DNA of 50,063 nucleotides. It comes from Saksenaea vasiformis B4078 (taxonomy: Eukaryota; Mucoromycota; Mucoromycetes; Mucorales; Saksenaeaceae). The DNA is taken from assembly GCA_000697055.1 (NCBI GenBank), contig JNDT01002250.1, positions 1 to 50,063 of the forward strand. The letters are read 5' to 3'. Under the pieces are notes generated by a model. The model ran no database searches and was not told the DNA's origin. It worked only from the letters and a program-made list of their open reading frames with translations. Shown here one piece after another: positions 16,493 to 50,063 of this stretch. How positions within the stretch are numbered: position 1 is the first letter of the stretch; each line of letters starts with the position of its first letter. The translations under genes were made by a program, and so were the position numbers.

Positions 16493-16734
16493 AGAAATTG
16501 CAGAATGCTCCCACTCATTTCATGATAGCGTGTAGCATTTTTGGCTATGGTGCCAATTGTCTATGCGTCTGCTTTGTCACACAAATTTCCTGTCATTTGT
16601 TTTGTGGTTGCTTCCTGTTGCTGAAAGAACCGATGCGGGTGGAGCCCAGTCTCCGCCCCCAGCTTAGGTTTTCATGTACAGACAAGCCACTCTTATCTGC
16701 TTTTGTCTTGTCTGTGTACAAGTATTCTGTACTT

Positions 16735-17277
16735 ATGGCCACCCAACAGCAAAACAGTCGACTTGATTTTCTTTTTCGAGCGAGCCATGCCGTTTTCTCA
16801 GAATGTCCTGCCCTTTCTCGGTTTTACATGAGTGAATTTCAACAGTCGGTGCGGCAACATAATGTAGCAACAGCAAAAGCAATTAGGCGGGTGGCCTGTT
16901 CCCGATGTGGACAGGTGTACGCACCCGGTCTCAATACTTCGGTTAAGTTTCAAACTAAACGAAAACGAAATCAACTTGCCTATCGTTGTCAGGCATGTCA
17001 TTATACCATTCGTCTTAATGGATCTCGTAAAGTAGCCATTGCAAAAGCAACAGCAACGGCTGGAACAGTGTCAGCAACACCACCAGCAGCAGCAGCAGCA
17101 GCGGCGGCGGCGGCAATAACGTCCGTTCCGACGAAAAAAACGGAAGTTGTACCACAAGATAAAAGCAAGAAAAAGAAAGGGAAAAAGAATAGTTTACAAG
17201 CCATGCTCGCGAAGCGAAAAGAACAGACGCAACAAACTAGTTTACTTGGATGTGGTGATCCTTTCCAACCATTCTAA
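16735..17277 (+). CDS. RNase P/MRP subunit, Rpr2/Rpp21/Snm1 type
   Basis: A single-exon 180-residue protein. Family members bind the RNA of nuclear RNase P or MRP and help in tRNA or rRNA processing. Visible: N-terminal helices with RLDFLFRASHAVF and LSRFYMSEFQQSVRQ, then the zinc-ribbon halves CSRCGQVYAPG and CQACHYTIRLNG, spaced as in Rpr2-domain proteins. A poly-alanine run (about residues 121-130, encoded by GCA/GCG repeats) is followed by a Lys-rich tail and a short conserved-looking end. I choose the ATG at 16735 because the domain begins right after it and an upstream ORF extension to 16498 has no similarity and runs into repeat D. Which subunit (Rpp21, Snm1 or Rpr2) cannot be settled. 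Confidence 0.8.
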   Translation: MATQQQNSRLDFLFRASHAVFSECPALSRFYMSEFQQSVRQHNVATAKAIRRVACSRCGQVYAPGLNTSVKFQTKRKRNQLAYRCQACHYTIRLNGSRKVAIAKATATAGTVSATPPAAAAAAAAAAITSVPTKKTEVVPQDKSKKKKGKKNSLQAMLAKRKEQTQQTSLLGCGDPFQPF

Positions 17278-18150
17278 CAATAATGATGATAATAATAATA
17301 ATAATAAAAATGAGGCAGAGAGCCTATGTACATACGACGTTTTCTGTTTATGAATCGATCTAACTGGGAACGCAAGTCGGGGTTCTATGGATTCATGGAT
17401 GGTATTACTTTTTGCGTAAGGACGGAGTAGGAAATGTCATTTTGAGAAAGAGGGAAGGGGAGGGGGGGGGGAAAGACGATGTGATGAAAGAAAAAGGTTT
17501 ATGGGGGTTAAGGGATTGTCTATTGACTTTGTAACCTCGTGCATGGGCGTGCCCTTAACACCACAATAAAAACTTTTTACTGCTTTTGCATCTCAAAATG
17601 GACTTCGATTAAAATAGTGCTTTCACCTTCTAAATTGGACCTTTCTCCTTAAACCCGGACAAGAGAGAGACAGAGAGACAGAGATACAGAAAGAGAACAG
17701 AGAGAAGGTACAAATACAGAAATAGATAGATAGAAAATACAGGATGAAATGGTCCTTATAGATCTAAACTTTTTTGAGCAACAAAAGTTATGGTAAGAAC
17801 CGTGTGCGTAATTAAAGCATTTTATACAATAAAAACGGGTCTATGCATGAAGGAACCAACAAAAGAAAAAAAAGATTGTACTTCCTAGTGAAGTAATTGC
17901 GCGTAAAAAGAGAGAGAGAGAGAGAGAGAGAGCAAAAAATAGAGACAAACAGAGAGATAGAGATAGAGAGATCGAGAGAGAGAGAGGAAGGAAAAACAGA
18001 TCATTGAGAAACAGGTGTTCTTTCCCTTAAATATCATGACAGTTGTAATTCTTGTTCTTTTTCATCTCTTTCGCTCCTTTCCCAAGTCCTTCCTCTCCTT
18101 TCCTTTCTCTATCTTTTCGTTTTTTCTCTCTCTTTCCTTTTCTCCTTGAC
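17278..18150. other. Intergenic, GA-rich
   Basis: 3' flank of the RNase P-type gene (with a CAATAAAA polyadenylation-like signal near 17563) and 5' leader of the zinc-finger gene. It includes (AAT)n near 17283-17308, a G-rich tract near 17455-17472 and several (GA)n tracts between 17660 and 17990. Confidence 0.6.
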
Positions 18151-19113
18151 ATGTCGTCTCCTTGTGTACAGTCGATGAATCACAACACGCAACCGAAAAC
18201 ATTCATCGGTCCCACGGCTGTGAATGGATATCCAAGTTCCTCCTACGACTACAAGGGAATGTGCATGAAAAGTAGTGACAAGGAGGAAGAAGACCCATAT
18301 CGACGTTTCAGTTATGATCTGGTCTCATCTCAGGATTACAACCATTACATAACAACTCCACCTGCCAGTGGACCTGGTCATGGTAATGGGATCAAGTATG
18401 AATTTACAGAAACACCTCGTCCCGGCCCAATGCCATTGATTGATCCATCGTCTGCTGCTGCCAATCATTCCGGTCTTCAACCCTCTTCCGCCTTGATGTC
18501 CTCCTTTAATATGTTTGGTTTGCCATCACCTCACCATCATCATCATCATCATCAGCAACAACAACAACAACAACAACCGCAACATCCTCATCAACAGCAA
18601 CAGCAACAGCAACAACAACAACAGCAGCAGCATCAGCCTTTGCAGCATCGTCATTCGATTTCGGCATCGTATTTTGGTTATCCAATGTACACTCAGCCGC
18701 CACGACACAATAGTTTTAGTCATCCTCTTCCGTCTTCCGAAGTATGTATTTCGTCTGGCATTACGAAATCTCAGGGTATGACGACGACTCCACCAAAACG
18801 TTCACGAGGTCGTCGCGTCTCCAATGTTCCTACAGGCAATATTCGGATGTTTACTTGCAAAACAGATGGATGCGGAAAAGTCTTTAAGCGGTCGGAGCAT
18901 CTCAAACGACATATACGTTCGATTCATACATTGGAAAAGCGTAAGTTATTACTATTATTATTATTATTTCTGGGTTGTCTAAACACCAGTCTATCTATTT
19001 TAGCGTTTGAATGTCCCTATCAAAATTGCCATAAACGATTTTCACGTTCTGATAATTTGAACCAGCATATCCGGATCCATCGCTCTGCCAAACCTCACAT
19101 GACACACCAATAA
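18151..19113 (+). CDS. C2H2 zinc-finger transcription factor, Msn2/Seb1-like
   Basis: A predicted nuclear DNA-binding regulator of 299 residues, from exons 18151-18940 and 19004-19113. The N-terminal 210 residues are low complexity with His runs and long Gln/His tracts (about residues 130-165), typical of activation regions. A basic PPKRSRGRR segment (about 212-220) precedes two adjacent C2H2 fingers: CKTDGCGKVFKRSEHLKRHIRSIH and CPYQNCHKRFSRSDNLNQHIRIH, joined across the intron by LEKPFE. Two C-terminal fingers with RSEHLKRH and RSDNLNQH recognition helices match stress-type regulators such as Msn2/4 and Seb1. The ATG at 18151 is the first after a pyrimidine-rich leader. The 63-base intron has no stop and is a multiple of three (see findings). 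Confidence 0.85.
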   Translation: MSSPCVQSMNHNTQPKTFIGPTAVNGYPSSSYDYKGMCMKSSDKEEEDPYRRFSYDLVSSQDYNHYITTPPASGPGHGNGIKYEFTETPRPGPMPLIDPSSAAANHSGLQPSSALMSSFNMFGLPSPHHHHHHHQQQQQQQQPQHPHQQQQQQQQQQQQQHQPLQHRHSISASYFGYPMYTQPPRHNSFSHPLPSSEVCISSGITKSQGMTTTPPKRSRGRRVSNVPTGNIRMFTCKTDGCGKVFKRSEHLKRHIRSIHTLEKRKLLLLLLLFLGCLNTSLSILAFECPYQNCHKRFSRSDNLNQHIRIHRSAKPHMTHQ

Positions 19114-28981: not shown

Positions 28982-31353
28982 TGAGGAGAGATGAAGATAG
29001 ATAATGGAATGCAACTCATTATTGGTGACATGAAAGACATCACGGGCCACATAGAAATGAGCAAAAGAAAGCGCAGCCAGGCAAACAGCGAGGATGGTGG
29101 ATAAAGTTAACAATTGACCAATTCGCCATTTATCAGGTCGATCGGAGATTTCCGTATTGTCCACAGAAATAACCAAGGTAGCCGCATCGTTCTAATGTGC
29201 AAAAAAAAAAAGTGAGCCATTAAAAATACAATAATAAAATAAAATAAAAAAGGAGAGAGAGAGAGAGGTGTGCTTACCAGGACACAAATCATGATCAGCA
29301 GGACGGCAGGCATATCCCAGTTATGGGCCATGGTGACGATAAACATGAACAGCAAAAAGTGGATGGTGGAGGTGATTCGGTAGAGAGCATAGGACCGGAG
29401 ACGTTGGAAAATGGCACGCGAGGTCTTGACACCGTCAATGATGGTGGAGAGACCAGGAGCAAGCAAGACAATATCGGCGGCGGAACGGGCGGCATCGGTA
29501 CAGCCTGAGACGGCAATACCGACATCGGCTTTTTTCAGCGCAGGTGCATCGTTGACACCGTCACCCGTCATGCCCACAAGAAGACCTTTGTTTTGCAACA
29601 GTTCTACCACGCGGTACTTGTGTTCGGGAATCACCTGAGCAAAGCCGTCCGCACGTTGACAATGTTCGGTGACTTCTTCTTCTGTCTTGGTCGGGTCGAC
29701 CAAGTGATTGGCGTCTAAAATCACGCGACCCATACCGAGACGGGTAGCGACTTCTTTGGCAATGATCAGCTGATCACCCGTAATCATTTTGACATCGACA
29801 CCCAGCGCATTGCAGTCACGGATGGTTGCAGCCGAGTCGGGACGAGGCGGATCCAGCAAGGAAATCATACCGACAAGCTCGAATTTCTCGAGATTGCCTG
29901 GTACGGTCTTGGCCACACCCAGAGCGCGGAGACCACGGCGAGCCAGCGCGTTGACGGCATGGACGGCTTCATCATGACCACCCACCAGACGGGTGATGAC
30001 CTGGGGAGCACCTTTGGCGACGCGGAAGGATTCGTTGGTGTCGAGATCTTTGATCGTGGCCTGGGTCATCTTCGTCACGGGATTGAAGGGCTGGAAGGCA
30101 GTGACTTTGAAGCCGGGCACATCGCGCTGGTTGGAAGGGCGGTTGCGCAAAATATCGAGAGAACCTTCTGCTGCACGACGCACAGCTGCCTCAATGGGAT
30201 CGTTGGCACCAGGTTCGGCTGCCAGATAAGAGTAGAGCAGGATATCATCTGCCGTATAGCCATCGTTCAACCAGGGTTCATCAAAGGTGAGCTCATTCAG
30301 CGTCAATGTACCCGTCTTGTCTGAGCACAGCACAGAGACGGAAGCCAGTTCTTCTACGGCCGTCAGACGCTTGACGATGACCTTCTTTGCGGCCAGCTGT
30401 TTGGAGCCAATGGCCATGGTGACGGACATCACCGTGGGCAGACCGACGGGAATAGCCGCAATCGTCAGGACCAGACAGTTCACCAGGACACGTTTCCAGT
30501 CACCCTGCGGAGTACCTCGGAAGCTAACCAGCTGATAGACAAGGACAATGACGACCAGAACAATGGTGGACCAGATGAGGACGTTTCCAATTTTGGCAAT
30601 GATTTTTTGGAAGTGACCTTCTTCGGCAGTAATGGCAATCAGGTTTGCAGCACGACCAATAAACGTATTGGGACCTGTTTTTGTCACGACCACAAGTTGT
30701 TGACCCTGCTTGACAATACTGGAAGAATAAACGGTATTTCCTTTCTTTTTGGCAACGGGCAGCGATTCACCGGTGAGGGCCGACTGGTCGATTTGGAGTT
30801 CGGCTTCGCTTTCTTCACCATTGACACCCAGTCCCAGCAGACGACCATCGGCGGGCACAATGTCACCAATACGGAGCACAATCACATCACCGGGAACCAG
30901 TTCTTGTACGGCGATCTCGACCAATTCACCATTGCGAATACATCTTGTATGAAGAGCCAAGGTTTGTCTTAAGGCCTCCAGCGCCGATTCAGCTTTGGCT
31001 TCTTCGATGTAACCGATCAAGGCATTGATTAACAAAAGGGCTAAAATAATGGCGAAGTCTAACCAGTCTTCGACCACACCCGCAATGATACAAGCAATTT
31101 CAATTAGGTAGGCAATAGGACCAGTGAAATAGCTAAAGAATTTTAAAAAAGGATTTGTCTTGCGTTCTGGTAATTCGTTCCTGCCAAATTTCGCTTCACG
31201 TTCTGCCACCTCGGCGGAAGAGAGACCAGTACTTGGATCTGTATGAAGAAGCACCTCTAATTCGGGAGGAATATCATCTTCATGTTCCACATGTTCTTGC
31301 TCTTCGAACTGTACGCCGGTTTTCTTCTCGTCCTCTTCTCTTTGATCACCCAT
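28365..31353 (-). CDS. PMA1: Plasma membrane H+-ATPase (P3A-type)
   Basis: Pumps protons out of the cell at the cost of ATP and sets the membrane potential for nutrient uptake. Four exons, 29278-31353, 28981-29191, 28528-28894 and 28365-28443, give 910 residues, matching fungal Pma1 (about 900-1000). Seen in order: acidic N-terminus, membrane segments about residues 70-118 and 255-320, TGES at 194-197, phosphorylation site DKTGTLT with Asp345, and TGDGVNDAP at 596-604, followed by the C-terminal membrane domain. Intron two carries a 35-base poly-T tract on the plus strand. The C-terminal tail ends AFQKFGQSEEYHEKTG and lacks the yeast tandem Ser/Thr regulatory site. The 3.2 kb gene-free region upstream likely houses a strong promoter. 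Confidence 0.96.
28944..28978. repeat. Poly-T tract inside PMA1 intron two
   Basis: About 35 consecutive T on the plus strand, just downstream of the donor in gene orientation (poly-A on the coding strand). Length is likely polymorphic or imprecise in assembly. Confidence 0.9.
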
Positions 31354-36384: not shown

Positions 36385-36727
36385 TTAGTTTCGTGTTATC
36401 TTTTGTACATGATCCATTGCCATGGCTAAACCCGTTAAGGTGGTCAACACTGTATTCAATTCGGTATATTCGGGATCGATAGTATCTGTATGTTTCAAAA
36501 GATCTTTAGGAAACGGAGTGTGTGTGAGTGCACCTATTAGAAGTAGCAGCCAGTGATAATTTACCTTTAATCAACAAACAGTACCGAGGCACACGTTGGA
36601 TCGGGGCAATAAAGTAATCGGACATCCCCATTCGATTGGTATCTTTTCGTGCTAAGGATTCCTTGATTGAAAGCTTTAGTTTTTTTTTTGTTGGGTTTAT
36701 TATTATTACTATTACTATTACTATTAC

Positions 36728-36758
<31 letters not shown>

Positions 36759-37815
36759 TGGTCAATTTTCATAAACAAAGCATTGTGACATGCTCGACGA
36801 ATCGTTTTTAGATTGGCTTGGTAATGAATGGCGTATTTTAGAAACACAACAATCTCGGATTCAAAAGATTTGAAAACTGAACCAATGCAACGACCACTCT
36901 CGAACGCAACTAAAAGTTTTCGTGACAGAGTGATCAATTCGGGCAGATGACGGAAAAGGACCGGGATGTCGCCTGATTTCACAAGTGGATCCTTTGCCTC
37001 GGAAGCCGCCATCATAGGCTCCAAATAACGCTACAAATTGGATGTTTGTTGTCACATCAACCTATGGTTTTTGCCTTTTTGTTTTACATACCATTTGAAT
37101 GAGACTCAGTAATCGGTAGTAAGATTGCTCGGTTGTGTAAAGTTCATGAATAATTAGATTTCTTAATGCCAAGTCTTTTGGGGACAAACACTGTCGTCTT
37201 GCCTATGTAAATAAAAACAAATAGAACAAAGCCTGACCATGGAATTTTTATTATTATTACCTTGTGCTCTCGTTGTGCCGAGTCTTTTTTTTGTTGTTGT
37301 GCATCTTGCATCAATTGTGCTACGGCGTTCTGCCATACCGTGATGGCTTGGAGTTCTTTGTCAACCAATCGAAACACAGATCGCGCTTGCTCCGGTAAGG
37401 TTTGCTTGGCTTTGTACAACGAAAGATGGCGCGTGGCTTGGTGCGGAGAAGCAGAATAGTCGTGCGCATTGTCGATCGTTTGTGTGTTATAGGATTCCAT
37501 TTTCATAGAGGATGAACGAGATAAGATCGATGAAAAAGGTGTCATTGTATTATGATGATGATGATTATGATTTCCCGGTGGTGCTTCTTCCTCTTCTTTT
37601 TTTCGAAATAAAAATTCAGATCGTGAACGAAATCGGTTACTGCTATGGCATGCGTGTTTTCGACGTGCAATACGATCAAAAAAAGACTGAAAACATCCAA
37701 AAGGTGCACTACGAATGCCCGTTTGGTTTATTACTACTTCTTCTTCCTTTTCGTCTTTGTCTTCTTCATGATGTGCCGATTTTGCATGATCCAATTTTTT
37801 TAATGACATAATCAT
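36385..37815 (-). CDS. RhoGEF, DH (Dbl-homology) domain protein
   Basis: A predicted activator of Rho-type GTPases. Five exons, 37261-37815, 37092-37202, 36758-37030, 36565-36661 and 36385-36503, give 384 residues. The N-terminal 185 residues are mostly low complexity (acidic and His-rich runs) and probably disordered. The DH domain follows: LALRNLIIHELYTTEQSYYRLL (CR1, about residues 195-216), PVLFRHLPELITLSRKLL (CR2), and SDYFIAPIQRVPRYCLLIKDLL (CR3, about 327-348), then the last helix. The protein ends about 35 residues after CR3, with no PH domain, unlike most Dbl family members. The (ATT)n tract lies in intron three. Confidence 0.85.
36697..36757. repeat. (ATT/ATTACT)n tract in RhoGEF intron
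   Basis: About 60 bases of ATTACT and ATT units, ending at the splice donor of exon three on the minus strand. Confidence 0.85.
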
Positions 37816-44359: not shown

Positions 44360-45095
44360 CTAGAATTTGTCCGCAGTCATGGACACCAAAAGAGACCACA
44401 CACCAGCAACACCTCCGCACACAGCGGATGCCATCAATGTCGCGCGGGGACCTAAAGGGAAGTTGAGTTTTGAGGGATTGTTTTGGTTATCTCGGGAACT
44501 TACCTGCCGTGCTCTTGAAGATGGCTCCAGAAATGGCACCACCAGCGATGCTATTCAACATATCATGTTCACCTCTTGCGTAATCAATCATTGCTGTTGT
44601 GCCATTATACATCATAGCAACCACACCCACAGCGTTACCCCATCCAGGTCCGCGACGTGTAATCGTGTTGAGGGTTGTGTTAAGACGAACTCTGGCGTTG
44701 GGTGAGTTGGCGCTTCGTCGGAGACCTTCAGCCAAACCAAAGGCGCCACCCAACGTCAAACCGGCCAAGTAAGTCGCACCTGTACCATAACACAGATCAT
44801 CGGTCCAACCACGCGAAGGTGTCAGTGCTGCACCACCATGGCCAGTGGCTTGATCTTCAATTTGCAAAAAGTCAATGCCTCCTTGAAGAGCAATAGGCTG
44901 CAGTTTCGTGGGATCGTAGGATACGTTGGAAAGGAAATCCGGCATTTGTTCATACGAGTTTTCCATTACAGGCGCGGAATCAAAACCCTGATTGCCGGTT
45001 GGTGAATAGATATCGTCAACATCTTGGGAGTTGAACTCGGAAGAGCTGTTGTCGTTGGTAGGTGCGCTGGTGGATCCGAAGCCAAAGATACCCAT
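44360..45095 (-). CDS. TIM23: Mitochondrial inner-membrane translocase Tim23
   Basis: Channel-forming subunit of the TIM23 complex that imports presequence proteins. Two exons, 44504-45095 and 44360-44451, give 227 residues. The N-terminal half is a polar intermembrane-space domain with LSNVSYDPTKLQPIAL and GGIDFLQIED. The C-terminal half has the Tim17/22/23 membrane domain: TYLAGLTLGGAFGLAEGL, RRGPGWGNAVGVVAMMYNG, SIAGGAISGAIFKSTAGPRA and a final span. Length matches fungal Tim23 (about 220-240). The last 60 bases encode a short C-tail DKF. Confidence 0.95.
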
Positions 45096-45261
45096 GTTTG
45101 ACGAAGGGGAACAACAAGACGAAAAACTCTGGACGGAGTGAGAAAAATCGCGCAAGCCTTCGAAGTTTTGCCGGGGTGACGTTTTCTTGCCTAAACCCCG
45201 ACCGGGAACGATTTAACTTTTATTCGGTCATTGAAATCGAAATGTGATCATTTTTCTTTAT
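45096..45261. other. Intergenic between TIM23 and the SWIM relic
   Basis: Contains the TIM23 promoter region; no other signal seen. Confidence 0.4.
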
Positions 45262-46145
45262 TTATCTTTGCGTTGACAAATTCGTATTGGGGAACACTTC
45301 TTCTTTGCTCCAAGCATACTCCATAGCATCAAAATACTTCTTTATCTCCAAGAACTTTTCAGGCGAGCATCCTTCACAGCTTTGGAACTCTTGCAGGAAG
45401 TTTTGCATTCTCTGTTCCAAGACTGTCTTCTGTGACGCGAAGTCCAATGTGCCATCTTCCGTGTTTTGAACTGGAACAGTTAATGTCACATGTGAGTAAG
45501 TAGACACTATTAACAGCATTACGCGTTAGAAGCTGTATGCAAGTAGTTTTCTACAATACCTTGAAGGACGTTTAGGTTGGGATTGGCACGCTGGAGGAGA
45601 TACATATGTTTGCATGCTACTTGGCGCCAGACGAAGTCTCTGCAGGTGCATGCTGTCATGTTCGAATTTTCGACAGAAATATTATATGCTACGCCCTCCT
45701 GTGTGAATGATCTGACAGTATGACCCGAGACCATATCGTCAACTACAGCACTAGGTATCTGGGCAGCTGCAATCTCTCGTCGTCTTCTCTCTCTTTCTGC
45801 GGGCCCCATTCTTCCGACATTTGCGCTTACGCGTGCCGTGGTCATTTGGAAGTCGAACTCCACATCGTGTATTAAGATCAAGTCAGCAATGATCTTCTTG
45901 GGATCCGTTTGCTCTTTGCTATATTTCCAATGTCGATTCACTTGCGAGTATTATCCCTACACGATCTAACTACGTGGGAAGAGCCATAGTTGGATACATA
46001 CGTTCAGATGTGCAAATCTGTCTTGCAGCTGGTTTTCGTTGAATCTTACTGAAAATGATTTTCTTCCACCCCTTGCATTCTGCTTATTTTCGGGTACATT
46101 TGCACTTCATTTTGCAAAGTTTTTATCACATCATCGAGATCCAAC
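45262..46145 (-). pseudogene. SWIM zinc-finger C-terminal part of a MULE-like transposase
   Basis: Coding segments on the minus strand: LDLDDVIKTLQNEV (about 46145-46050), RFNENQLQDRFAHLN (about 46035-46000), NRHWKYSKEQTDPKKIIADLI through VEFDFQMTT and NVGRMGPAERERRRREIAA, the SWIM finger CTCRDFVWRQVACKHMYLL (C-x-C and C-x-H ligands) at 45941-45519, and a helical tail (about 45480-45262). This arrangement matches the C-terminus of fungal MULE-like (Mutator) transposases or SWIM proteins. The DDE catalytic domain is absent upstream. The junction between the finger exon and the tail needs a frame shift or a non-standard splice, since the obvious GT-AG pair leaves the wrong phase. It is either a truncated relic or a domesticated fragment. 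Confidence 0.6.
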
Positions 46146-46474
46146 TGTGGCAACGTCTACCTGTGTCCCAATTATTGCTGCACTACACAATCGCTTATTA
46201 TCTTCAATATGGAAGATAGCTCTGCATCTGCAAGCTTCTTGCAGGTTATTTTCTCTTTAAATAAAAGGGATAGTTTCTTTTGAGACAGGATAACACTTCC
46301 CCAGAGACCAGTTTCTGACAGGAATTGTTTGTTTGTGATTAGCTGCAGGAATATCTTTCCGATCTGACGGACAAAGAACAGGATTTACTCGCACGCAGCG
46401 ATCAAACGTTGACCAATAGGCTTTAAACAGTACGAAGGTTAATATGGTTTGGTGGCCACACTGCCTGTGTAATT
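46146..46474. other. Stretch upstream of the SWIM relic
   Basis: May include further decayed exons of the SWIM gene on the minus strand (for example near 46200-46260), but no consistent chain was found. Confidence 0.35.
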
Positions 46475-46541
46475 AATCCTGAAACGCTGGCGCCTACTGC
46501 TGAAGTTATATGGTAGGCGTAAGGTTGATAAATCCTGAAAC
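46475..46541. repeat. Hairpin flanked by 11-base direct repeats upstream of Fanzor
   Basis: AATCCTGAAAC occurs at 46475-46485 and again at 46531-46541. Between them a perfect 7-base inverted repeat, CGCCTAC (46491-46497) and GTAGGCG (46513-46519), can form a hairpin. It lies about 200 bases before the Fanzor start and could mark an element end or a regulatory structure. Confidence 0.6.
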
Positions 46542-46743
46542 ACTAATTTATCATGTGCTTAAAAAGGCGAAAAATTACGTCGACTGATCAGATTACAACA
46601 CAATGAATGCCAAGTGTGACACAAGTTTGCTGCAGTTCATAACAATGAAAACTGGCAGATAAATAAACTCATTTTTTGGCAACGTCTTTTGATCTCCATC
46701 GTTTTCTTTTCCATCACCTGCTGCTTTACGCTGCCGTCAACCC

Positions 46744-49700
46744 ATGGAACCCCTCGCTGAGGAAGGCCCGCCGAGGCAACGGCAACGACAGCGATATCGC
46801 CAATCACTTCTACCGCGAACCGATGGCAAGATAGGAAGAGTTACCAGAAAACTAAAGCTGTCCAGTTTTCTAAACAATGACTATAAATACTTACGAGTGA
46901 GTGTTCATTCCAACAAGCAATATCTTGTTAACACGCTATTGACAGGAGCAATTGCGACTTGTTGCCGAAGAATACCACGTCATGAAACGTGATGCAGTTA
47001 ACCTTGTGAACCTTCATTTGCGTCGCTGGGTCGAAGGACTCGGCACAGAGAATGCTTTTCAGTTCCCACCCATTACGACTAGAATATTTTGGAGTAAAGC
47101 CTACCGGTTCGCCAACAACCGAGTCAGTAGGGTGACCCGAGGCGTAGATGTAAGTACAGTATAGTTCTATCAAGATGTCTAACGGAAAGCTACGTTGTTT
47201 AGCCGGAATGGCAGATCGATCTACTCGAAACTTTCATGTCGCACTTCCATCCTCTCCGTAGGAATGTCGATGCTAATGAACGTAAGATATATATACTGCT
47301 GCCAGCTGCTCATATGCATCGATTATTCCTAAAAATATACGTAATAGCGTTTTACGAGATCGTAGAAGTTCAAGGAGTGTACGGTTCATTTGCAGATACT
47401 TTTCCCGCTCAAATAATTCAAAGTACTCTGATGATCATATTATCAATACCCGACAATCATTCATAATTTGCACCAATAGATGTAAAACGACATTTGGTGG
47501 TCAATGTCCCTATATTTCTGAAAATGGTCTTCCGCGCGTACTTTGTCCATCTGAAGGAACAGATTGGAGGGAACCTCCCCGGTGGCGGCCCCGCTCACCA
47601 TGGTAAATAAACTCTGTTCAAAGGTCCAGTGATCTCATATCTATCATTTATTGCTGATGTAGCTGTAGCAAACGTTCTCAACCATGAACCATTGCAGGAT
47701 AACGTATGGGAAGATATGCCTCGTCGAGCAGAAGTGGCAGAGTTTTACCGGTAAGTACGACGGACTAACCGTCTGTAATTGATTAACATTTACGCCACTT
47801 TCGTAGTGTCCAGCATGAACTTTACGAACGTCAATGGCTGGAGTGGAAATCCATGATTTGGATCCAGAAGACGACGAAGCTGTTCCGCTCATGCCGGGTA
47901 TTGTTCAGTATATATATCACTTGCATCATTACAGTACGGAATATAACGGGAAAGTCTGGTCTTTACTTCCGATAACCGACCATCAGATTGGCCATTTTCC
48001 TATATTCACGAGAGTGCTGTGGTATCTACTGCGAGACGCTTACTTAGCAAATCAGCACGTACCCGAGCGCTTTCTGGTAACAGAGTTTGTGCAATATATA
48101 CAACTAATGATTTTCATTCTAGGGCCCACAACGAGGTCCACTGCGAAGGACATACATGCCTCAACAACAATTCGAGCATCGTTGCCGCGACAGCGAGTGG
48201 AAAGAGGCACTTTGGGAAGAAATTTTTAATATTGATAAATGCCAAGCGAAACGTCGACGATTTGATCCTGAACGTAAGCAATATTCTGTTTTAAGTCCAT
48301 CGTCCAAATGATTTTGTTTTTTGAAGATGATCAACCAGAAGTGCAGTTGGAGTTTGCCTATTACTTGCAAACCGATGGAGTGTCTGTCTCTGTACAATTT
48401 GACCGACGACGCTCAGGTACGCCAACGGAAGGTCTCCAATAACTCACTGTGTTTCATTAGAACGTTACCCATCTTCGAAGCGAGATTTCCGACTTCTTCC
48501 TCGAGAGATGGATCTGAGTGATTGGCAAAGAGGTATATATCACCTCAACAAAGAACCTCATGGGATGGATGAAGACAGACTGGCTCATTCCAGGATCATC
48601 GGTGTAGATCCAGGTATAAGCCAAGTAGCTATTCTCTTGCTATACTAAAATTTTGACAGGGATCCGATCAATGTTCACAGCCGTAGATACAAATGAAGCT
48701 ATGGACACCCCCGAGCTTCGCAGCGCTCATTCTGCCACGATCAGTAACAAAGAATACCAGTAAGCGACCAATATCTGTCGCTTTTTGAGCTAATCGTCTG
48801 ATGTATAGATTGCGATCAATGTTTACATGGTCAAAGCAAAATGAATTGAAATCTCGTACAACAGCGGAAATACAACCTCATTATGACCTACTGTCGAACA
48901 ATCCTCCTACTGTCATGAGCGTACAAGGCTTTCAGCGGTATATCACTGCTTTGAGCATCATCCACAACACGTAAGAAAAAGTATCTTAAAACCACTTCTC
49001 ACAAACCTTTATTAGACTACATAACTTCAACAAGAGCTACCGACATCGGGAAAACCGACTGCTTCTGTACTCCGCAAGACGGAGCACACTCGACGTACTG
49101 GCAGACCGCATTGCTAATTGGACTCCGCGAGACGTAAGTTTGTAACGCCTTCATATTATGCTAACTTAACTAAAAAAAAAAAAGCCGGACGTTCGACCAC
49201 ACTACAAGTCAACCCCATCATCGCGGAAGCATCGCCGTCGTAAGGCCCGCCGACAACATCCTCGGCCGGGACAGCCAGCAATCATTGCGTATGGTGACGC
49301 GGATTTGCGACCTACAATGCGGGGCCAGGGTCCAGTTCCAGTGAAGGTGAGCATTTACAAGTTCTTATAGACAAGTCTCACGCATTCCAAATACTAGACA
49401 TTCCGGCAAGTTCTCGCAAGGCACGCTCTCGTTGTTCTGGTCGATGAATACAACACTAGCAAGGTGTGTTCAAACTGCGACCATGACACGGAACAGTTTC
49501 GAGCACCAATAGCACGATGTCCGCACGAGTATGTATCAAACCGCTGGAAATATTCGAAAATTGACTTCATCAATAGAACCAAAGTAGTTCGGTTTGTCGG
49601 GGCTGGGAGAGCCAAACTATATTGTCTTGATGAAAACGAACGAACGATGCATCCGACATCACAATGCCCAGAGCTTCAACCATTAGGCAAGTAAATATCA

Positions 49701-50027
49701 GGCTGCCTACTTGTTACTCTAACTGGATCTTTTAATATAGCCATTACAGATAATCGCAGCAGCGTGTATCCGATCAAGGTGTGCCACCACCATCGGTTGG
49801 GACAAGCTGCCGATGATCAAGCTCTCAGACCATTAGTAAGTGTTCTTATATCTGTTGTTCTGTTCTCATTAAATGTATAGTTCTGGAACCGTGATGTGAA
49901 CGCGGGAAGAAACATAAGAATTCTAGTTGCCTACATGGAAAATGGACATCAGCTAGAGTCAAGACCCCTCTCATTACAACGACCGCAGCAGCAGCAACAA
50001 CCGCCCCATATCGGGGCTAGGCAGTAA
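46744..50027 (+). CDS. Fanzor (eukaryotic TnpB-like RNA-guided nuclease), possibly damaged N-terminus
   Basis: Fanzor proteins cut DNA guided by an RNA from their own locus. Proposed exons: 46744-46896, 46946-47149, 47203-47281, 47480-47581, 47624-47750, 47807-48076, 48123-48273, 48327-48416, 48461-48613, 48660-48759, 48809-48970, 49016-49133, 49185-49346, 49398-49686, 49741-49835, 49881-50027. From 48123 onward all junctions are phase-consistent. Diagnostic blocks: YYLQTDGVSVSVQF, RuvC-I IIGVDPGIRSMFTAVD, RuvC-II VVLVDEYNTSKVCSNC with its Cys pair, a later KVCHHH pair, and RuvC-III FWNRDVNAGRNIR, so the Asp-Glu-Asp triad is kept. The tail is Gln/Pro rich. N-terminal exons are uncertain: one needs a 42-base intron (47582-47623) to avoid a TAA, and a one-base frame change is needed near 47840. 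Confidence 0.88.
49687..49740 (+). other. GC-AG intron in Fanzor
   Basis: The 54-base intron begins GCAAGT and ends ATATAG with a CTAAC branch-like site. Only this GC donor gives the frame PLAITDNRSS; the nearby GT (49691) leads to a stop. Confidence 0.65.
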
Positions 50028-50032
50028 GGAAC

Positions 50033-50056
50033 TGCCAACAAGCCTCTCGTTAGGCA
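50033..50056 (+). other. Hairpin just after the Fanzor stop
   Basis: TGCCAAC (50033-50039) can pair with GTTAGGCA (50049-50056) with one bulged A and a 9-base loop. Fanzor guide RNAs and element ends are usually located at or after the 3' end of the gene, so this is a candidate piece of the guide RNA scaffold; the window ends 7 bases later. Confidence 0.4.
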
Positions 50057-50063
50057 CCTGGTG

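Follow-up and report, generated by a model that had tools for sequence, protein, structure and literature searches.

Fanzors connect the TnpB proteins of bacteria with eukaryotic genomes, and genome editors are being developed from them; RNA-guided cutting has been shown for other members of the group than the one described here, and, to our knowledge, little is known of how Fanzor guide RNAs are produced in native hosts. Three Fanzor1 proteins have solved structures, SpuFz1 of Spizellomyces, PpFz1 of Parasitella (Mucorales) and GtFz1 of Guillardia. In the available portions of the published accounts, residues D383, E541 and D606 of SpuFz1 hold the metal ions, its omega RNA joins a scaffold of 75 nt to a guide of 14-15 nt drawn from the flank, and the omega RNA of GtFz1 overlaps the coding end (PMC10432273), while in SpuFz1 and PpFz1 one stem-loop separates the first stem from the guide (PMC11423790). 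The accessible text of another account gives the TDG block of the WED domain as a Fanzor1 trait and DPG together with a Glu six residues ahead of the zinc finger as a Fanzor signature, and puts forward the terminal repeat as a part of Fanzor1 scaffolds (PMC10711439). Regarding the carriers, the portion available of the report by Bao and Jurka describes MuDr-type Fanzor1 elements in Rhizopus, Phycomyces and Mucor (ROr-4, PBl-3 and MCi-4) as having clear terminal inverted repeats and 9-bp duplications and no MuDR transposase, gives the motif D-X(125,275)-[TS][TS]-X-X, and presents the Mucor Fanzor1 family MCi-2, with exchangeable 5' regions and a partial Crypton transposase in MCi-2A (PMC3627910). 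Here we analyse contig JNDT01002250.1 of Saksenaea vasiformis B4078 (C537), taken whole, 50,063 bases, and called the window, from an assembly of 38.7 Mb in 666 contigs. Its best explanation, to which we assign a probability of roughly 0.85, is a damaged Fanzor1 RNA-guided nuclease gene on a family of DNA transposons, probably Mutator-like elements (MULE-type), in a Mucorales fungus.

Fanzor1 identity and condition of the gene

The motif blocks TDGVSVS (48371-48391), GVDPG (48601-48661, split by intron 10), VDEYNTSKVCSNC (49440-49478) and WNRDVNAGRN (49884-49913) all lie in the order proposed by an earlier note on this DNA, whose gene limits, from ATG to the end of TAA, proved exact (Table 1). 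GVDPG supplies the DPG of RuvC-I and WNRD the RD of RuvC-III; six residues separate the Glu from the first Cys of the CxxC pair, and the 201 residues from D to TS fall within the spacing D-X(125,275)-[TS][TS]-X-X. Furthermore, the Pfam model Cas12f1-like_TNB matches the window half at 28.5 bits (cut-off 26.3).

A search with the whole protein of the intact sibling L017 returned nothing at E <= 0.001 among the 7995 candidates sharing most words that were scored. With residues 385-775 of L017 as query, 24 protein matches were obtained, led by a Fennellomyces protein at 46% identity and followed by proteins from Amoeboaphelidium, Trebouxia and others at 21-26%. A profile was built from the alignment of ten of these 24 homologues with the window half; no variation occurs in that alignment at T-D-G, the RuvC-I Asp, the Glu, T-S, C-C or the final Asp. 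This profile matched SpuFz1 (E 9.4e-53), PpFz1 (3e-52) and GtFz1 (4.2e-43), and chains of Cas12f, TnpB and TranC only at E 4e-4 to 1e-3; by these scores the window protein is closer to the solved Fanzor1 proteins than to TnpB or Cas12f. Moreover, D383, E541 and D606 of SpuFz1 map with a single offset of 394 onto the window Asp, Glu and Asp codons (Table 1), and the Asp/Glu/Asp alignment, whose loss would have spoken against a Fanzor, is thus kept. Together the homologue search, alignment and profile matches support membership in the Fanzor1 family, which sharpens the broader Fanzor assignment made before; the tree that had been suggested for comparison with published Fanzors was replaced by the profile search, with matches to the three solved Fanzor1 proteins.

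The gene model has 18 exons, where sixteen had been counted, and 17 introns of 44-66 nt rather than about 42-57; 16 introns are GT-AG and one is GC-AG, and phases are consistent except at exon 7. Eight copies, the window and seven siblings, entered the gene-wide alignment, and intron positions are identical across them wherever the copies cover them. Long residence in a nuclear genome, as had been proposed, is a fair inference from such dense introns at matching places. The GC start of intron 16 (49687-49740) is common to the window and all seven aligned siblings, and intron 7 of L017 also begins with GC.

Exon 7 of the window is one base short compared with all seven aligned siblings, and the 18-exon model consequently stops at codon 297 (47973). 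Read alone, exons 8-18 give 472 residues with no stop. The triad is present as letters. The idea of an intact, maybe active, catalytic half fails for the window copy: by the 18-exon model translation ends in exon 7, ahead of that half, and the full protein cannot be made. It is very unlikely that the missing base is an assembly or sequencing error and the window copy intact, even though there is a single assembly, the element is repeated and the contig breaks off within it, because the frameshift site is not a homopolymer run and copies L010, L011, L012, L014 and L020 have lesions of their own, decay thus being usual in the family. Indeed, L010, L011, L012, L014 and the window each show a length change that breaks the model frame, with stop codons besides in L010; L020 has exons 1-7 open and one stop in exon 8, and in L013 the copy begins only within the gene and one donor is gone. 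L017 alone among the eight aligned copies reads through 18 exons, giving 802 residues, provided that the acceptor of intron 5 lies 6 nt later. Decay thus prevails in the family of the window element. Over the 472 codons of exons 8-18, the ratio of nonsynonymous to synonymous substitution rates (dN/dS) between the window and L017 is 0.08 (dS 0.62, dN 0.05), and the protein was therefore under strong purifying selection in the family's past.

The transposon family

A DNA search of the genome with window positions 46300-50063, in which 40 of 61 candidates were scored, gave at least 45 matches, the window itself counted. Four copies cover nearly the full query at 91-95% identity, the copy on C214 spans the greater part of the query at 96%, and L017 stands at 81%. 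Subfamily B (C272, C445, C606 and others), with about 60-70% protein identity by exon, is distinguished from subfamily A. Contigs break inside the element at the end of the window (50063) and in L013, L016, L018, L019, L021, L023 and L025; because the assembly breaks at element copies, the copy numbers are lower bounds. At least 137 places in this genome match the Pfam TNB model (150 of 388 candidates scored, the window contig not among them), and Fanzor-like genes are therefore abundant in it.

The copies share their ends. An 18-base left-end pattern, with up to 2 mismatches, gave 25 matches against 7 in a reversed control, and the right-end pattern gave 19 against none, all 19 at right ends and on contigs with family matches; in siblings the right end lies about 80 nt past the point where the window contig stops. 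The left flanks carry a partly similar stretch resembling ACTTATGTCAC, as judged by eye. The 5' modules vary: the window type has a minus-strand fragment with a SWIM zinc finger (Table 1), and in L012, L015 and L018 a MULE region lies on the plus strand. The clearest of these is L015, in which the left end is followed by an open frame of 473 residues with PF10551 (32.9 bits, cut-off 27.6) and then by the Fanzor gene, the right end being cut by the contig; the MULE match is weaker in L012 and L018, and L012 has a right end, its left end not having been found. The family of repeats with shared ends and the MULE domain of siblings point to a eukaryotic transposon other than IS607 as the carrier; the serine recombinase of IS607 was not searched for.

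Several observations weigh against this explanation of the locus. On the protein side, the TNB match in L017 reaches only 23.5 bits, under the cut-off of 26.3, and the window half alone finds a single solved structure, Parasitella Fanzor1, weakly (E 0.0013). In the zinc finger three Cys align and the fourth is missing, with HHH after the third; the second Cys pair is present in 9 of 10 homologues, the tenth (Fennellomyces) being too short to show it, and a His ligand in place of the fourth Cys is possible. On the transposon side, the terminal repeats are only partly alike, no 9-bp target-site duplication was seen by eye in L010, L011, L014, C272, C445 or C606, where the exact ends are uncertain, and the family was found in one genome only among those searched.

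A Helitron was also considered as carrier, since the right end of subfamily A reads CTGG, and was dropped by eye, as the following bases vary and a MULE domain is present. The left flank on C272 (L058) and the right flank on C197 (L070) both carry CCAAGCGTTGG beside the element ends, as though a single insertion had been divided between two contigs. A second Fanzor-like family, in L001 (C531:66927-70091) and L004 (C599:883-4047), has an opposite-strand MULE domain about 270 bases off in both. Furthermore, a distant Fanzor lineage (L074 at C580:149700-150400; C565:171177-171470; C500:31652-31840) has 52-58% identity by exon to the window protein; no hairpin block appears at its one inspected 3' end (L074), and the host could have retained it as a gene that has no omega RNA.

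The putative omega RNA and the intron-like segment

The gene ends in a conserved block that overlaps its last codons and is cut by the contig end (Table 1). Between the A-main and L017 representatives this 3' block is 93% alike, against 82% for exons and 71% for introns between L012 and L017, and its pattern occurs at 45 places in the genome and at none in the reversed control. In subfamily A the block folds as four hairpins, and subfamily B has the same layout. Hairpin 2 shows a compensatory change, A-U in 11 of 21 rows and C-G in the other 10; hairpin 1 was left out of this count because of a two-column offset that the aligner introduced between A and B, and it pairs in both by eye. Rfam at gathering thresholds gave no match in the window, and the same block, sought by eye in L074 (C580), L001/L002/L004 and L003/L005-L007, was not seen. 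Because its layout resembles those of the GtFz1, SpuFz1 and PpFz1 omega RNAs, the block looks like an omega RNA, which we regard as putative. In working members, one transcript would serve both purposes, its body encoding the protein and its 3' end, over the stop codon, forming an omega RNA of three short hairpins, a terminal stem-loop ending at the transposon edge and a guide from flanking host DNA; the Fanzor-RNA complex would then cut DNA matching the flank. We infer transcription, guide use and cutting by family members from their sequences.

In siblings that retain the right end, GTAAG or a variant comes after the first strand of the terminal stem, and farther on an AG, from which 8-9 nt remain to the element end. 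This was followed in 41 copies of A and B, 7 of which were skipped for missing or altered sites (the window, L022, L028, L035, L041, L065 and L067). By eye, GTAAG is kept in 19 of the 22 A and 15 of the 17 B copies that show the site, and AG in 18 of 19 and 16 of 16. With three exceptions (L045, whose end is lost, C445 at 38 nt and L070 at 31 nt), the segment so bounded spans 56-60 nt in A copies and 53-55 nt in B copies, lengths close to those of the gene's own introns, and most of the conserved right-end repeat (GTGACTTAAG) sits within it. Our tentative proposal, held at slightly less than even odds, is that the last stem-loop of the omega RNA is split by a spliceosomal intron, which contains most of the terminal repeat, and that splicing joins the scaffold to the flank-derived guide. 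The predicted joins are ...GGGCAG to TGCACTGG plus flank in A and ...GAGCTTC to GGCCCTTCC plus flank in B. Splicing would thus remove transposase-facing sequence, and maturation of the guide would depend on the host spliceosome. No description of a spliced Fanzor guide RNA was met in the literature searched, most subscription journals being outside the reach of that search.

It is also quite possible, if further short of an even chance, that the omega RNA is real and unspliced, the 53-60 nt segment staying in a scaffold of about 143 nt and GTAAG and AG owing to coincidence and conservation of the terminal repeat; the published proposal that scaffolds include this repeat, in the portion of its source available, suits such an RNA (PMC10711439). 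Splice-site scores, from a matrix built on this gene's 17 introns, divide between the two. The A donors outscore all 17 gene introns (top 0.03% and 0.00% of GT sites in the window), the B donor outscores 10 of 17 (top 1.8%), and shuffling reproduced a donor-acceptor pair of this quality in 2, 0 and 28 of 5000 trials, which argues against coincidence. Against splicing, the A acceptors lie below all 17 gene introns, 88% and 80% of the AG sites in the window equalling them, while the B acceptor is in the top quarter; A-main has a better-scoring AG 26 nt past the donor, too near by the sizes of the gene's introns. The interior of the segment is 61% alike between A-main and L017, an intron-like divergence that, with its length, is again at odds with a retained segment.

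The folds are similarly divided. With the segment removed, A forms a flush stem of 13 bp capped by a UUCG loop (z -3.8 and -5.5), a point in favor of splicing; arbitrary deletions of 40-70 nt, the segment included, do as well or better in 22 of 651 and 13 of 744 cases, and among GT-AG choices the segment is the best of 4 and the best of 3. The B fold speaks the other way: once spliced it is not distinctive (187 of 351 deletions, second of 2, z -1.2), and its minimum-energy form departs from the four hairpins, whereas the unspliced form keeps hairpins 2 and 3; by eye only, the B junction would complete a UUCG loop. A genomic copy with the segment precisely missing, which would have favored splicing, was sought in this genome and not found for A, and for B one match with 3 mismatches appeared (L075), unrelated, in surroundings without the block, about one such match being expected by chance by our estimate.

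Pairing across the segment was counted in an alignment of 21 of the 27 distinct sequences among 34 3'-end rows; L038 and L045, whose damaged first strand or right end would have told against pairing, and four little-differing B rows were omitted. Nine outer pairs between the strand ahead of the donor and the element end are paired in 92.1% of cells, against 75.3% in shuffles (0 of 500 reaching this) and 37-60% when the strands are slid, and changes on both sides occur in 32 cells, where shuffles give 14.3 (0 of 500). Five pairs have a double change, a number reached by 187 of 500 shuffles, and one of the nine pairs fails in 9 of 21 rows; the independent covariation events are few because the rows split into two main clades. 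At the level of aligned sequences, this shows that the element end pairs with the sequence ahead of the segment. Such covariation is no proof of splicing, because an unspliced RNA can pair likewise, and it tells to that extent against our proposal.

The strength of the donor, next to a weak acceptor within the element in A, would also suit an outlet that splices the Fanzor transcript onto acceptors of the neighbouring host DNA, which would spare host genes and build no guide; the left end of the window copy lies 61 bases upstream of an open reading frame (ORF) for Tim23. We hold this to be unlikely: the in-element acceptor of B is fair, AG is kept nearly throughout in both subfamilies, though the terminal repeat alone could explain this, and the pairing of the element end with the pre-donor sequence would be lost.

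The Tim23 ORF starts at 45155, next to the left end of the element (45216), and the insertion may lie within its promoter (window 44487-45216). The best match of this ORF is from Apophysomyces sp. BC1034 at 86% identity, which makes the host Mucorales-like. Elsewhere the window holds ordinary host genes identified with Pfam, for an RNase P Rpr2-type subunit (16498-17277), a C2H2 zinc finger protein (18052-19113), a P-type ATPase (29107-31353) and a RhoGEF (36506-37024).

Table 1. Positions in the window of the Fanzor1 gene, the putative omega RNA and the surrounding transposon copy.
Feature	Position	Strand	Remarks
Transposon copy within contig	45216..50063	+	left-end motif to contig end; right end beyond contig
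MULE-type transposase C-terminus fragment with SWIM zinc finger	45522..45908	-	PF04434, 20.8 bits, cut-off 19.6; inverted relative to the Fanzor gene
Fanzor1 gene, ATG to end of TAA	46744..50027	+	18 exons, frameshifted in exon 7
Exon 1	46744..46896	+	
Exon 2	46946..47149	+	
Exon 3	47203..47281	+	
Exon 4	47348..47422	+	
Exon 5	47480..47602	+	
Exon 6	47663..47750	+	alternative start 47669 is the acceptor that L017 and L020 would need
Exon 7	47807..48076	+	one base short compared with 7/7 aligned siblings; in-frame stop 47973
Exon 8	48123..48273	+	
Exon 9	48327..48416	+	TDGVSVS motif (WED domain)
Exon 10	48461..48613	+	RuvC-I DPG; Asp codon 48607-48609
Exon 11	48660..48759	+	
Exon 12	48809..48970	+	
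Exon 13	49016..49133	+	
Exon 14	49185..49346	+	
Exon 15	49398..49528	+	relocated RuvC-II Glu (codon 49446-49448), first CxxC
Exon 16	49577..49686	+	followed by the GC-AG intron
Exon 17	49741..49835	+	third zinc-finger Cys (VCHHH)
Exon 18	49881..50027	+	RuvC-III Asp (codon 49893-49895) through stop
Putative omega RNA start	50003..50063	+	overlaps last codons and stop; contig end cuts block
Hairpin 1	50003-50017	+	
Hairpin 2	50020-50036	+	contains stop codon
Hairpin 3	50042-50055	+	
Terminal stem, first strand	50056-50063	+	intron-like segment and right end known from siblings only

Comparison with described systems

The window holds a true but broken Fanzor1 copy of a familiar type, and the part that deserves follow-up is the possibly spliced guide RNA of its siblings. 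If splicing occurs as proposed, a transposon could keep its transposase-facing end and yet free a guide RNA from that end. Splicing would also bind an RNA-guided nuclease to the eukaryotic nucleus, and predictions of omega RNAs that rely solely on genomic DNA could then go wrong where hosts are rich in introns. The MULE region of siblings bears, moreover, on the 2013 report of MuDr-type Fanzor elements, described in its available portion as transposase-less (PMC3627910).

Compared with SpuFz1, PpFz1 and GtFz1, the window gene has the RuvC triad positions, DPG, relocated Glu and TDG in common, and, as far as the accessible parts of their descriptions go, they have an omega RNA at the 3' end and a stem-loop beside the guide, as the putative omega RNA of the window family would, the overlap with coding sequence being found in GtFz1. 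It differs from them in lacking the fourth zinc-finger Cys and, in siblings, in the intron-like segment of the last stem-loop; its 17 introns were not compared with the genes of these three proteins. With ROr-4, PBl-3 and MCi-4, as partly described in the source available, the family shares Fanzor1 in elements of Mucoromycota, its own being probably of Mutator type, and it departs from them in the MULE region carried by siblings and in the 9-bp duplications, which were not seen by eye in six copies. The Fanzor-bearing 3' part kept beside varied 5' regions recalls MCi-2, while the MULE pieces in both orientations set the family apart from the Crypton-related MCi-2A, again going by the accessible portion of that report. 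Finally, bacterial IStrons, which combine a group I intron with an insertion sequence (IS) element, resemble the proposed arrangement, in the descriptions available in part, in having an intron and the end of a TnpB-type transposon on one transcript; unlike these self-splicing elements, the window family has signals of the spliceosomal type.

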